Origin: Crambe crambe
Lineage: Eukaryota > Porifera > Demospongiae > Poecilosclerida > Crambeidae
Direction of reading: 5' to 3'
DNA: 64,000 nucleotides
Assembly: GCA_963924555.1 (NCBI GenBank)
Contig: OZ004583.1
Coordinates: forward strand, 8,198,582-8,262,581
Below are positions 1 through 38,550 of the stretch, one piece after another. The translations under genes were made by a program, and so were the position numbers. The notes under the pieces were generated by a model. That model was not told the origin of the DNA and made no database searches. It worked only from the letters and a program-made list of their open reading frames with translations. Position 1 is the stretch's first letter, and the number at the start of each line of letters is the position of its first letter.

Positions 1-131
1 GCATCTCCTTCACAGAGGTAGGGTAAAAGCTCATCAAGGTTCAAATATTTGATTATCTCTCTTTCGTTGGCATGAAATCTCTCTTTCACTTTTAATTCTT
101 TCTCCGCGCCACTAAGTAAGACTAGGGTCAT
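1..131 (-). pseudogene. CARD-like domain fragment (N-terminal part), cut by window edge
   Basis: Read on the minus strand from an ATG at 131, this encodes the same peptide start as the fragment at 23818, including the stretch EGEIIKYLNLDELLPYL. The run of Leu-rich helix followed by ELLPYL resembles the second and third helices of sponge CARD/death-fold domains. The same segment recurs at 3694-3818, 23640-23818 and 28672-28726, always 5' of a Rab or Ig/FN3 unit on the minus strand, so it is part of the duplicated cassette. The rest of the gene would lie left of the window. The death-fold call rests on pattern memory only. Confidence 0.4.
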
Positions 132-432
132 TTTGCTTGACACTTACTTCTGTACAGTAGCTTGTGTAAACCAATTTGAACCTAAGTTTACATAGGGCTT
201 TAATTAAGTGCATGAACTATGACCCCCTGGCCGGATATAATAATTTGTGGTGACATCACTCGAGTCAGTCATGCGCATGTGACACTGTTCAGTGGCAACA
301 ACACAGTAGTAAAGGATGTGGTTAATGCTGTGGTAATGTATTCTGCTAATTCAAACAACAGTTTGTAAAATTATTATTAACTGAGCAAGACCAAACAATA
401 AACGACAATAATTATTATAATATAACTATTAC
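132..432. other. Intergenic 3' flank of TM-type copy 1
   Basis: AT-rich sequence between the CARD-like fragment and the stop codon of TM-type copy 1. It is collinear with the flank of copy 5 (about 23830-24243) and partly with copies 2 and 3, as expected for duplicated cassettes. I see no open gene here. Confidence 0.6.
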
Positions 433-2868
433 TTAGCTATGGATATAATGTTGTTCATAGGAAATATTTCCTTGGATTTTGACATCTTTCCATGGATGTG
501 TGTCTAGAGGATCTTCTTTTTGATTATTATTTCTGACTTTTAGTCGTAGCAGTCGAATTAAAATCCCACCACATAATATGCACAACAGGGCAATGAACAC
601 AAGTGAGGTTACTGATACTGCAATGACGATAGAAGTATCCACTGTCTTTATTGTTGCTATTATACAATGTCATGGATGTTAATTCACACAATATCTATTA
701 AATAAGCTACATAAATGATACTAACTAATACATGACAGTGAAACCTCACAATAATGGACACACTTGGGACCCATCCTTTTTTGTCCTTTGTACAGAGGTC
801 AAGTTGCCCTCTTATTTTGCATATGATGTATAGAAAGGTAGGCACTTTTAAATTGCCCCCTGTTGTCTTCTTTGGAATGTCCTTTATAGAGGGGTATAGG
901 AGGCTCCCTAAAAAGTGGGTGGGGGGACACTGCTGCGTTCCTGCCCCCCTTTTTTCTACACTGCAAAAACGATTGGGTAAAAGCAACCCATATTTAGTTA
1001 CCAGAGTTGCAGTTTCCATGGCAACCTGCAATTCTGGTAACTAAATGTGGGTTGTTTTAACCCAATCATTTTTGCAGTGTACGCACCATTTTCTAGGAGG
1101 TTCCACTGACCATGCACATTTGGGAAAATTACCTATAATGTTATAGTTTGAGATTATAATATATAAACAATACATAAATAGTTACATAATAGCCTTATCA
1201 GTAATGATATAATATCCTGTAGCTACTTGAGCACTTGCGTAGCTAAGATAAAATTATGAGTTTGTTGACTTTTGTATATTATGTTTCACTGGAAGCAATA
1301 GATTCGATAAAACCTCATTTTGCTGCTAAACAATCAACAACTAAAGGAACACCCTACGTGCGCGCGTAGTTAGTTAATACTCAAAGGAACACCCTACGTT
1401 GTTAGTTAATACTCAAAGGAACACCCTACGTGCATAGTTAGTTAATACTCACAGGAACACCCTCTGTTGTTAGTTAATACTCAAAGGAACACCCTACGTG
1501 CATAGTTAGTTAATACTCACAGGAACACTTTACGTAGTCTAATAGTTAAATTCAAAGGAACACCCTAGCTACATGCGTAGTTAGTCAATAGCTACTCACA
1601 GGAATTTGTGGTATCAGTGATCCTAAAGTTTGATGAATTTATATTAAATTTTATTTCCTCAGTAGACTCACTAGTAGTAGAAGATTCAGTAGAAGTGACA
1701 CTTATTGAGTTCATTTCTGTACAAGTTTAAAACAGAATATTGTATTTTATCACAGTACATGGACAGATGGTGTAGGAAGATAGCTAGTTATAATAACATA
1801 TAAACTGAAATTCATCAATATTTTGCTGAATTAGATGAGGGCGGTGACAATAAACTCAGTACTTATGTAAGTATTAATAGATCGATTTCCCTGCCACCTG
1901 GCTTTCTTCCTTCTATGCCCATACACCTGGTGCTCACAATATTGTCAACATTGTCTAGCTATACTTCAGTATGCAATCATTATTATATAACCCATGATAG
2001 TAACTGTTTCTATGATGAGTAATAACTCACCTGTGATATCAACACTAGCTGATATACTTGGGCCAGCACCAATGCAGTTGATGGCTCTAATCTGTATGAA
2101 GTATTCTCCAGTGGAATTCAGGACAATGCTAGCATCAGTGTCATTACTGACTACTTGATGTAATACTTCAGATGAATTGACAAAGATCTGATAATCAGTG
2201 ATGGCTGCTCCACCATTATCCAGGGGAGGGTCCCACTGCAACTCTATTCTTACTGAGTTATTGTAATCACTCGATGCAAACGTTAAGTTCCTGCAAAATG
2301 AAGGAGAACCTGCAGGATAATAAGGAATTATATTACATGTTCTATAGGGTTTATCCAATCGATTGCAGTACTGGAACTCAGCAATGGCTCTTCTATGCAT
2401 GGTCTAGCTGGTAATCATCATGTATAGCTGTCTGAAGAAGTACTAAGGTGGTAGCTGGGGCATATGAGTATCCTGAGTTTCTGCTCACTCACTTGGTGGT
2501 TGAAGATCAAGTGTTTTTGTTGTTGAGACATTGCGACATGTTACACTGAATATACTCATTGCAGTCACATTAAAAGTGGAATTAAGTGAGACTGGGTTTC
2601 TTCCCATCTCTGTAGTACACAAGATCACTTCAATACCTGCTGATTTGGCATCTCTTCTCTCTCTACAGGAGTCAGCCAAGTAAGTCCTCTGATAATTAGA
2701 ATGCATACCATCACTATGGTCAATATGCCAGGTGAGTGAACCGAAAGCTTGACATCTGCAATTCCATTTATTTCCAGGACAGGAGACATTTATGGGAGAA
2801 CATTTTAGTACAACTGATTCGGTCAAACCACAGAGAAAGACAAGCAGAAGCACTACATCAATAATCAT
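433..2868 (-). CDS. TM-type Ig-like + FN3 receptor, copy 1 (4 exons)
   Basis: Predicted type I membrane protein of 326 aa. Exons on the minus strand: 2868-2493 (signal peptide MIIDVVLLLVFLCG, then a Cys-rich Ig-like domain with CPGNKWNCRC and SLTWHI), 2309-2031 (FN3 domain with LQWDPPLDNGGAAITDYQIF), 1716-1600 (Ser/Thr-rich stalk with STESSTTSESTEE and an N-glycosylation site) and 641-433 (TM helix IVIAVSVTSLVFIALLCIL, then a 36-aa tail). All junctions are phase 1 with GT-AG borders and the total is divisible by three. The start is the ATG before the hydrophobic stretch. The tail contains KEDPLDTHPW and ends NISYEQHYIHS. The last intron holds a MITE and a donor-derived minisatellite. Ligand and function are unknown; an adhesion or recognition receptor is inferred from the architecture. 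Confidence 0.8.
959..1079. mobile_element. Palindromic MITE with TA target duplication
   Basis: A 121-bp inverted repeat beginning CACTGCAAAAACGATTGGGT and ending with its near complement, flanked by TA on both sides (957-958 and 1080-1081). The paralogous site near 24781 has a single TA and no insert (TTTTTTGTACGCACC), so this is an insertion in copy 1. The TA duplication fits the Tc1/mariner group; the family is not identified. Confidence 0.85.
1340..1600 (-). repeat. Minisatellite made of repeated splice-donor sequence
   Basis: About seven irregular units containing GGAACACCCTACGT and TTAGTTAATACTCA lie just downstream (minus strand) of the stalk exon of TM-type copy 1. On the minus strand several units read TGTTCCTGTGAGTATTAAC, a copy of the stalk exon's own donor context. 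Copy 5 has about three units near 25040-25140; copies 2, 3 and 6 have one. The array therefore grew from the exon-intron junction after duplication. Confidence 0.75.
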
Positions 2869-37100: not shown

Positions 37101-38418
37101 CCCCCCAGAGGTGGTTGCAGTTTGACTGTGGTCATTGGCTCACTGGAACACCCACTCATTGCTAAGTAAACATGGATGGCATGAAGACTTTCAGTTGACC
37201 ATGCTCTCCCTTGATCGAATAAAAAAAAAGGATTTAGGGGACCATCCATGTTGCTAAAATTGGTCTCCCACCAGGGTTTCATCTAGGAATTTCACCTTGG
37301 GGGGGAAGCTAACTGATTGTGTAGCCATAGGCCACGGCGAGGGGGAGGATGCGGGAGGGGGATGTGCCCCCTCCTGCGCAGAGTGCAAAAGAAAATTTCA
37401 TTTTCACAAATGCTAATACTCTATTAGGGAGGGGATTACATTTCTTTCAATAAGTATAGCTTATGAACATAAAATTTTTTTGGGGGGGAAGCTTCCTCCC
37501 CAGTAGATGAAACCCTGCCACAATATGATAGCCCACGCACCCTCTCATTCAACCCCCGAGTCGCTCGCTTCACTTGCAATTAGTTTCCATTCTTTCCAAA
37601 AAGATTTTCAGAGGGAGAGAGGGAGGGACTATTCATGTTGCTAGGATCATCAGGACCAATTTTTGACACAGTTGGGGGCCAATTTTTACAATGACAGACC
37701 TAGCAATCACCCATGTGACTATGATATGTTGGAGTAGGAAGTTTTAGATTTGGGATTGTTTAAAAATAAAAGGCAGTATGATATTACTTTTAAGGTCATA
37801 GTTACAAATTCTCCCTCATTAATTGACAGTGGCATCCTCTCTGGTGTGTTGTGGAGTATGTATCCGTATTTGGAGCGAGTTGCAACTGAATCATGCAGGT
37901 AGACACAGTTAAATGTTAGCATGCTTCTATCCCAGCACTGACTCAGAAAGATGCTAAATTGCCATATAGTATACAGCAGGCATGAGAGTAATCATATTTC
38001 TACAATAATTATTGGCAATAATTATGAACTTTATGGTTCACCATCATCACCACTTACACCATCACTACTTGCATTTGCAAGAAAGTGTTTTTACCATTCC
38101 CTACCACGCTCATCCATGCTTGCAAAACGTGAGCCCCGCCCACTATGCCTGAAGATATTCACTATTAAACTTCACACCACTGGAGACAAAGACTATACTG
38201 GCCGACAGTGATTGCTTGCAGAAGCTCTATCTCTTCACAATCAAGCGCTTACTTAGCTAGAGATCTCGGCTTTATACATAGCTAGGTGTTTCTGGCTTAC
38301 CTCCTATGGTGACCTTGTAGTTTGCCAACCATTCCTTTGTACAATAGCGCGCCACAAAGGCTGTCTTCCCCACTCCTGGTTCACCTATTACTAGCACCTT
38401 GAAAACTGACTCACACAT
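34119..38418 (-). CDS. RAB32-like: Rab32/38-like small GTPase, copy gamma (apparently complete)
   Basis: Predicted 223-aa Rab. Exons: 38418-38301 (MCESVFKVLVIGEPGVGKT, P-loop), 35942-35887 (ADYAVKTIKWSEEETVRLH), 35570-35373 (WDIAGQD, G3; TYYRGAFGCIIMFDLTN; SEPIPCVLVANK), 34807-34686 (DDLPNREMTDQEIQTF; MSVKENKN, G5) and 34296-34119 (LVQKM, EDYNGGVGNESTDGSSGI, GGGGGCCFISRP, stop). G4 is NKDD, split between exons 3 and 4. Rab32-family proteins direct trafficking to lysosome-related organelles and phagosomes (family knowledge). The Cys-Cys pair is followed by five residues, more than in usual Rab tails. No frameshift was found, so of the three copies this is the likely functional one. Intron 1 is 2.4 kb with a MITE; a GA/GGA-rich tract (34330-34510) lies beyond exon 5's acceptor. 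Confidence 0.8.
35301..35408 (-). repeat. 36-bp in-frame tandem repeat of exon end plus splice donor (Rab gamma)
   Basis: Donors follow 35373, 35337 and 35301 at exact 36-nt spacing. The last unit ends AATAAA-GTATGTCC, the others AATAAG-GTATGTCC. Same arrangement as 14747-14856. Confidence 0.85.
35574..35801. repeat. Long (TG)n(GA)n microsatellite next to Rab exon 3
   Basis: (TG) to about 35633, then (GA) to 35801. On the minus strand it gives a (TC)n(AC)n tract of about 228 bp ending in TAG at the acceptor of exon 3. The copy in Rab alpha is about 130 bp. Confidence 0.9.
37272..37516. mobile_element. MITE in Rab intron 1, TIR CAGGGTTTCATCTA
   Basis: 245 bp with ends CAGGGTTTCATCTAGGAA and CAGTAGATGAAACCCTG, flanked by CCAC on both sides. 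It is absent from the collinear intron of copy alpha (around 16530). Family unknown. Confidence 0.75.
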
Positions 38419-38550
38419 ATTTCGTCTGCTATTCCTAACTAGTCTTATCTAGGCCATAGCCTGTTTGCAATTTAGACACTCTATTTAGAGCACATCAATC
38501 ATGTCAGGCTACTGGGCATGCGCGAATAATCCAAAGTAGACATTTCTTTA

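Follow-up and report, generated by a model that had tools for sequence, protein, structure and literature searches.

The receptor array of the window

A stretch of 64,000 nucleotides from the sponge Crambe crambe (contig OZ004583.1, here C5, positions 8198582-8262581; hereafter the window) carries an array of genes predicted to encode cell-surface receptors with an immunoglobulin-like (Ig-like) and a fibronectin type III (FN3) domain. All results come from the DNA of one genome assembly (143 Mb, 119 contigs), in which 30 homeodomain matches were recorded, a number that would suit a demosponge such as Amphimedon queenslandica. Two types of genes are present, one with a transmembrane (TM) segment and one with a putative glycosylphosphatidylinositol (GPI) signal. 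A sequence-only reading had proposed six copies of the TM type and at least six copies or relics of the GPI type in one orientation, in every state from intact to dead, and an exon-by-exon check found six of each on the minus strand, with complete, insert-bearing, exon-deleted and relic copies represented. Four of the six TM-type copies are complete, one is without the TM exon and one is internally deleted; the GPI-type sequences (n = 6) comprise one complete gene, one copy with an insert and four relics.

2868-2493 (signal peptide and Ig-like), 2309-2031 (FN3), 1716-1600 (Ser/Thr stalk), 656-433 (TM and tail), minus strand: TM-type gene g1, 331 aa, open; tail ending in NISYEQHYIHS
3197-3001, minus strand: GPI-type relic, only the FN3 end and the last-exon region
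6131-5765, 5575-5297, 5012-4902, 4297-4158, minus strand: TM-type gene g2, 298 aa, open; tail end LIIIEKKIH, shifted relative to g1 and g5
7547-7478, 7408-7088 (Ig-like), 6784-6524 (FN3), 6458-6385 (GPI-like signal), minus strand: complete GPI-type gene, 241 aa, open, GT/AG sites; C-terminus GSGAAKISSHLSGIFFMMLLVIMI
11184-10818, 10594-10316, 10033-9893, 9322-9150, minus strand: TM-type gene g3, 319 aa, open; short tail without a tyrosine motif
12131-11922, minus strand: GPI-type relic with an in-frame stop
19671-19216, minus strand: TM-type copy g4, which has lost the FN3 and stalk exons by deletion
20653-20417, minus strand: GPI-type relic with an in-frame stop
26428-26062, 25879-25601, 25258-25142, 24467-24244, minus strand: TM-type gene g5, 328 aa, open; tail like that of g1
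28270-26642, minus strand: GPI-type copy with open FN3 and GPI exons; an insert of about 480 bp (between 27494 and 27975) interrupts the Ig exon
31424-30139, minus strand: TM-type copy g6, which retains open Ig, FN3, and stalk exons but has lost the TM exon
32398-32153, minus strand: GPI-type relic with an in-frame stop

The complete TM-type genes (g1, g2, g3, and g5) share a plan of four exons, encoding the signal peptide with the Ig-like domain, the FN3 domain, a Ser/Thr stalk, and the TM segment with the tail; their introns are in phase 1 with GT/AG sites, and their reading frames are open. No sushi exon was found in the TM-type genes of the window minus strand, which have the stalk exon instead. 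Comparison of the window with itself by blastn revealed duplicated blocks with identities of about 76-97%; the most similar pair reaches 97.5% over 2 kb. The pairing of GPI and TM forms that had been proposed was confirmed: a GPI-type copy or relic lies directly upstream of each of the six TM-type copies, which indicates that the duplicating unit is the GPI+TM pair. The relics at 12131-11922, 20653-20417, and 32398-32153 are in one common decayed state, which suggests that their death preceded the duplication of the block they share.

The neighbouring genes at 6385-7547 and 4158-6131, described earlier as intact, are both open, but the tail of g2 is shifted in comparison with g1 and g5. The final KKIH of this tail was rejected as a retrieval signal, because it is a product of the shifted frame. 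The anticipated series of anchored, secreted, and TM versions was recovered in part, since a secreted form is suggested by g6 only, and g6 may simply be dead. Fair GPI-like terminal hydrophobic exons were recognized in four of the six GPI-type loci that have an FN3 exon (G2, G5, 49046, and L034), and in these four regions the observed hydrophobicity was reached by 1-4 of 300 shuffles. In the relic 3197-3001, no matching GPI exon was found.

Related genes on contig C5 and the divergence of their exons

The array had been assigned to positions 1-38450. It is real, but the cluster goes beyond 38450, with a receptor gene on the plus strand at 47183-48714 and relatives elsewhere on C5. The further members of the window are as follows.

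47183-47555 (signal peptide and Ig-like), 47617-47913 (FN3), 47973-48143 or 47973-48167 (sushi 1), 48222-48386 (sushi 2), 48449-48714 (TM and tail), plus strand: long-tailed receptor gene e1, open with either donor (423 or 431 aa); tail with YEEV and AAYGPV
18691-18925, plus strand: relic of an Ig-like exon of the 47183 type (94.7% identity over 187 bp)
51985-52144, minus strand: FN3 relic of the 47183 type
50335-49919 (containing the Ig-like exon), 49842-49570 (FN3), 49046-48946 (candidate GPI exon), minus strand: second GPI-type relative
62102-63321, plus strand: third type, an Ig-like pattern (CPEETFAVFTC...LTW) and an FN3-like open reading frame (ORF), recognized by eye, without a Pfam Ig or FN3 match

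Genome-wide searches gave at least 19 matches to the Ig-like exon and at least 21 to the long tail at the search cut-off, all of them at C5 7.93-8.45 Mb. The FN3 exon had 56 matches in all; the 22 with E ≤ 1.1e-12 are all at C5 7.93-8.57 Mb, and the others have E values of 2e-6 or weaker. The exon counts are lower bounds: the searches did not list the Ig exon of w5 or a diverged copy at 8.57 Mb, both of which were recognized in the DNA itself, read for C5 7.90-8.10 Mb and for selected stretches as far as 8.586 Mb. Within the DNA read, twelve long-tailed genes were modelled: e1 of the window, e2 at 8.45 Mb, and ten others at 7.93-8.01 Mb. All 12 are open. Their plan comprises a signal peptide, the Ig-like and FN3 domains, one (4/12) or two (8/12) sushi domains, a TM segment and the tail; in the two-sushi genes the splice donor after sushi 1 is ambiguous, and the later donor retains the fourth sushi cysteine. 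Outside these models are partial Ig matches (4 of 22) and 9 of the 21 tail matches. In the 8.29-Mb copy the tail is a variant (YENVSL...NVSYVDHKL), and neither a start codon nor a sushi exon was found.

The FN3 domain was recognized by PF00041 in g2 (29.8 bits) and e1 (27.8 bits; cut-off 25), and the GPI-type FN3 exons scored 19.5 and 24.1 bits, under the same cut-off. The sushi-1 exon of the L037 copy matched PF00084 with 25.0 bits (cut-off 20.7), and the second sushi exon of e1, with 18.8 bits, is under this value. The minus-strand genes of the window are a side branch of the wider cluster, characterized by the stalk and by the lack of a strict motif resembling the immunoreceptor tyrosine-based inhibitory motif (ITIM).

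More distant sequences of similar composition were also observed. At L037:553-3312 (C5:8572052-8574811), there is another Ig-FN3-sushi copy; the ORFs behind it, which may form one gene with it, contain the ITIM-like repeat APVEYAAV twice and a region resembling a death-fold domain by eye, with no Pfam match. L036 (C5:8580001-8586000) contains tandem Ig-like, FN3, and sushi modules with a period of about 1 kb, apparently a further relative of the family, and weak FN3 matches extend such modules to 8.64 Mb. The third type occurs on both sides of the array, its other Ig-like/FN3-like ORFs (again by eye and with no Pfam Ig or FN3 match) being at L032:5900-6334. Other runs of FN3 exons, weakly similar to the cluster family, lie at C5:2.57 Mb and C9:1.73 Mb.

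The exons of the 12 long-tailed genes differ strongly in their divergence. The median amino acid identity (66 pairs; 28 for sushi 2) was 34% for the Ig exon, 71% for FN3, 91% for sushi 1, and 90% for both sushi 2 and the TM/tail exon, and the median synonymous divergence (dS) was 1.48 for Ig, 0.45 for FN3, 0.18 for sushi 1, 0.19 for sushi 2, and 0.08 for TM/tail. A dS gradient of such size is hard to attribute to protein constraint alone, which points to homogenization of the 3' exons or to exchange of Ig exons between copies.

The comparison of dN/dS in Ig and FN3 exons, proposed in the sequence-only reading as a check, detected positive selection in the Ig exon of seven genes and none in FN3. 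The site test was applied to the 7 of 12 long-tailed genes with well-alignable Ig exons; the other five were left out because their Ig dS was high or saturated. The site models were run with custom M1a/M2a code, in which branch lengths were fitted under M0 and then scaled, and the internal controls were the FN3 and sushi-1 exons of these seven genes. For the Ig exon, the likelihood-ratio test (LRT) of M1a against M2a gave 26.0 (p 2e-6), with omega of about 5 at 12% of codons, and no positive selection was detected in FN3 (LRT 0.07) or sushi 1 (LRT 0.41). The Ig-exon LRT ranged from 23.9 to 45.3 across nine variants (trees from Ig, FN3 or sushi 1; gap margins of 0, 1, and 3 codons), and none of 100 simulations under M1a reached 26.0, the maximum being 6.2. 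The five Ig exons of the window minus strand gave an LRT of 9.3 (p 0.0096, uncorrected), with two of the five named sites in the signal peptide, and the FN3 exons of the same copies gave 0.0.

The long tail, PEYEEVSLSTKIELQENVSYGPVGSKS, contains two tyrosine motifs, PEYEEV and VSYGPV. Two YxxV/I/L motifs are present in 11 of the 12 long-tailed genes, and the strict ITIM-like form [VILS]xYxx[VIL] was found in 11/12 tails, e1 being the exception. Within the tail, the ratio of nonsynonymous to synonymous differences (pN/pS) was 0.32 in the motif region vs 0.94 in the preceding linker. As for a possible signalling partner, C18:6539084-6540942 contains a consecutive series of two SH2 exons and a phosphatase exon in which the site VHCSAGIGRTG is intact, and by their order these exons are predicted to form an SHP-type gene. 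Separately, at least 183 exon matches to protein tyrosine phosphatases were recorded (150 of 601 candidates scored), with large clusters at C12:0.07-0.38 and 2.5-3.2 Mb, C9:2.6-3.4 Mb, and C13:3.6-3.9 Mb.

Proposed function and its alternatives

The cluster is probably a germline-encoded set of cell-surface recognition receptors, partly of ITIM type, with short-tailed and GPI forms alongside. A recognition role had been proposed from the array itself, and it is now also supported by the positive selection in the Ig exon, the dS gradient, the conserved tyrosine-motif tail of linked members, and the SHP-type phosphatase exons in the genome. The receptors would be exposed at the cell surface, where the membrane-distal Ig-like domain may bind a varying ligand and undergo diversification, and the FN3 and sushi domains, or the Ser/Thr stalk, would space it from the membrane. 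The long-tailed members may signal through their tyrosines (PEYEEV...V-S-Y-G-P-V), most likely in an inhibitory, ITIM-type manner, by recruiting an SHP-type phosphatase and damping the cell. The TM forms of the window with short or altered tails and the GPI-type Ig-FN3 proteins, presumably anchored through their terminal signal, may act as partners, ligands or decoys. The GPI+TM pairs would duplicate as a unit and decay at different stages.

Several observations weigh against this explanation. The TM-type exon, previously labelled Ig, appears Ig-like by its cysteine/tryptophan pattern only: 0 of 17 sequences (one incomplete) matched a Pfam Ig model, tests with PDB profiles gave no Ig call, and the AlphaFold mean confidence (pLDDT) was 36. 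A match of the Ig profile to PDB entry 9y2f (PP1 regulatory subunit 29, E 0.04) was taken as chance, as it covers the CECQ..LxW stretch only. The GPI-type exon seems to resemble Ig domains weakly, with a pLDDT of 54 and a titin Ig domain as the best Foldseek match (E 0.035); titin and NCAM Ig domains were among the top matches, none of them significant. Comparison of the TM-type and GPI-type Ig-like profiles gave a probability of 11% over 26 columns, corresponding to a short CPG..C....W stretch. Among the GPI-type loci, no GPI exon was found in L029 and a weak one in L035, neither being convincing. The ITIM-like motif is present in 16% of shuffled tails and is weak taken alone, and the TM segment has a pN/pS of 1.7. 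The strict motif was found in none of the four window minus-strand tails (g1, g2, g3, and g5), and it is missing in e1 of the window (AAYGPV, YxxV only) and in the 8.29-Mb copy. Therefore, the signalling argument for the window depends on its relatives. Moreover, the seven genes of the site test were selected post hoc, after the pairwise table of 12, and the simulations were run without recombination, which between paralogues can inflate site tests.

The same selection pattern would arise if the proteins were innate receptors diversified by pathogens or symbionts and not by self, which is a realistic possibility with the odds against it. Many invertebrate receptor families diversify likewise. 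Microbial elicitors alter the expression of genes with Ig, FN3, and sushi domains in Aplysina aerophoba and of Ig genes in Dysidea avara (PMC6208332). However, an inhibitory-type tail would fit better with a self ligand that dampens the cell than with a receptor acting as the first sensor of microbes. Even as a set of microbe sensors, the cluster would add an ITIM-type receptor cluster beyond the cnidarian and chordate cases.

Somewhat less likely, and advanced here only tentatively, is an allorecognition complex proper, in which fusion or rejection of tissue would be decided by this cluster through matching of Ig-domain alleles between individuals, as in the Hydractinia Alr complex or Botryllus fuhc. 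The distal domain is under diversifying selection, and the gene neighbourhood and domain plan are of the same kind as those described for Alr (at least 41 loci, clusters, pseudogenes) and fester/FcoR (Ig and sushi domains, ITIM tails, paired neighbours). The Alr complex and the fester/FcoR genes appear to be the closest known loci. Hydractinia Alr has clustered single-pass Ig-type genes, pseudogenes, low mutual identity, and a common domain plan (PMC11067881), and ITIM/ITAM-type motifs (ITAM, the activating counterpart) are reported in Hydractinia candidate genes (PMC12065747), comparable to the ITIM-like tails found here. Unlike Alr, the present genes have one Ig-like domain with FN3 and 1-2 sushi domains and co-duplicated GPI-type neighbours, and the likeness is one of description. 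In Botryllus fuhc, the fester/FcoR proteins have ectodomains with Ig and sushi domains, one family bears ITIM or YxxI/L/V tails, genes that lack known signalling domains adjoin those with tails, and gene content varies by pairs (PMC12065747). Unlike the genes studied here, FcoR proteins carry an additional pair of C2 Ig domains and, in the passages considered, lack FN3, and fester has three TM segments; GPI, in contrast to the GPI-type neighbours found here, is not mentioned in that text (PMC12065747). FcoR membership comprises Ig, sushi, two C2 Ig domains, TM, and an ITIM/hemITAM tail; the present models have FN3 and lack the C2 Ig pair, and thus fall outside it. In sponges, Ig-like surface proteins such as the Geodia Ig-like adhesion molecule have been tied to cell adhesion and recognition (PMC11999971), as is proposed for the present receptors. 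The main text of an Amphimedon queenslandica graft transcriptome study, which is without the words immunoglobulin, fibronectin, receptor, and sushi, argues against an allorecognition complex.

The vertebrate KIR, LILR, and SIRP families mix ITIM-tailed and short-tailed members with diversified Ig ectodomains. Compared with them, the short-tailed copies of the window lack, by eye, a charged residue midway through the TM core, and no homology is claimed; for the same reason an activating-receptor reading of the short tails is not claimed.

A fuller version of the allorecognition proposal, a sponge histocompatibility complex formed by an Ig-FN3-sushi supercluster of 0.6-0.7 Mb whose receptors inhibit through ITIM/SHP, have partners held by GPI anchors, and are linked to genes for Rab32-like GTPases and CARD proteins, is doubtful. 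If true, allorecognition by receptors that signal through tyrosine motifs would stand at the base of the animals, beside or replacing the aggregation-factor model. The aggregation factors differ in domain make-up from the receptors of the cluster. They are described as proteoglycan complexes (PMC11999971). The specificity with which sponges reject foreign tissue has been taken to indicate a genetic system that is polymorphic (PMC5450542). Among the literature matches listed, no title or abstract opening names a clustered Ig-type receptor family for sponge tissue rejection, and no title concerns a sponge ITIM-type receptor cluster, which is not proof of absence in either case. The cluster offers a defined interval whose named exons and candidate hypervariable codons can be genotyped and tested.

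It is improbable that the genes are tandem duplicates of a cell-adhesion gene under relaxed constraint and without a recognition function. The numerous relics and truncated copies are compatible with it, as is the individual weakness of the ITIM motif arguments. However, FN3, sushi 1, and the tail motif region have pN/pS of 0.28-0.39 while the Ig exon has a class of codons with omega of about 5, and relaxation predicts omega near 1, not 5. Gamete-recognition proteins with Ig-domain change driven by sperm-egg coevolution would fit the selection pattern but are very unlikely, as clustered long-tailed receptors with ITIM-like motifs are not known to be typical of gamete proteins.

Interspersed Rab32-like, CARD and repeat sequences

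Sequences of other families lie between the receptor genes.

Near 17309-17211, 15018-14734, 14284-14201, minus strand: Rab32-like gene copy, last exon match weak
Near 38400-38302, 35570-35286, 34774-34691, minus strand: Rab32-like gene copy, last exon match weak
23281-23649, minus strand: truncated CARD gene copy, 96% identical to the neighbouring CARD gene
14736-14850, 32842-32998, 35288-35402: 36-bp minisatellite arrays with 3, 4, and 2 exact copies, respectively
12610-12766, 21106-21262, 54278-54350: other sites of the 36-bp minisatellite

The Rab32-like sequences noticed earlier as pieces are present, but they look like exons of genes with at least three exons, the exon-3 matches being weak (E 0.002). 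Rab32-like GTPase exons recur beside receptor genes at about 8.21, 8.23, 8.29, and 8.45 Mb (L030 at about 5983-8536; L031 at about 6596-6694), as if they formed a linked, co-duplicated family. The CARD-like piece is also present; it is a truncated copy of a 452-aa gene located directly left of the window (C5:8197129-8198487; L032:6548-7906), which is open and matches Pfam CARD with 27.1 bits (cut-off 23.9).

The ORF at 45065-45487 has sub-threshold matches to Ulp1 protease and PHD and is perhaps a mobile-element remnant. A long minisatellite, whose periods include 56, 100, and 156 bp, occupies 42979-44645. The 36-bp minisatellite corresponds to the end of a Rab32-like exon with an apparent splice donor (AAG|GTATGT), and its repetition forms an array of possible 5' splice sites.

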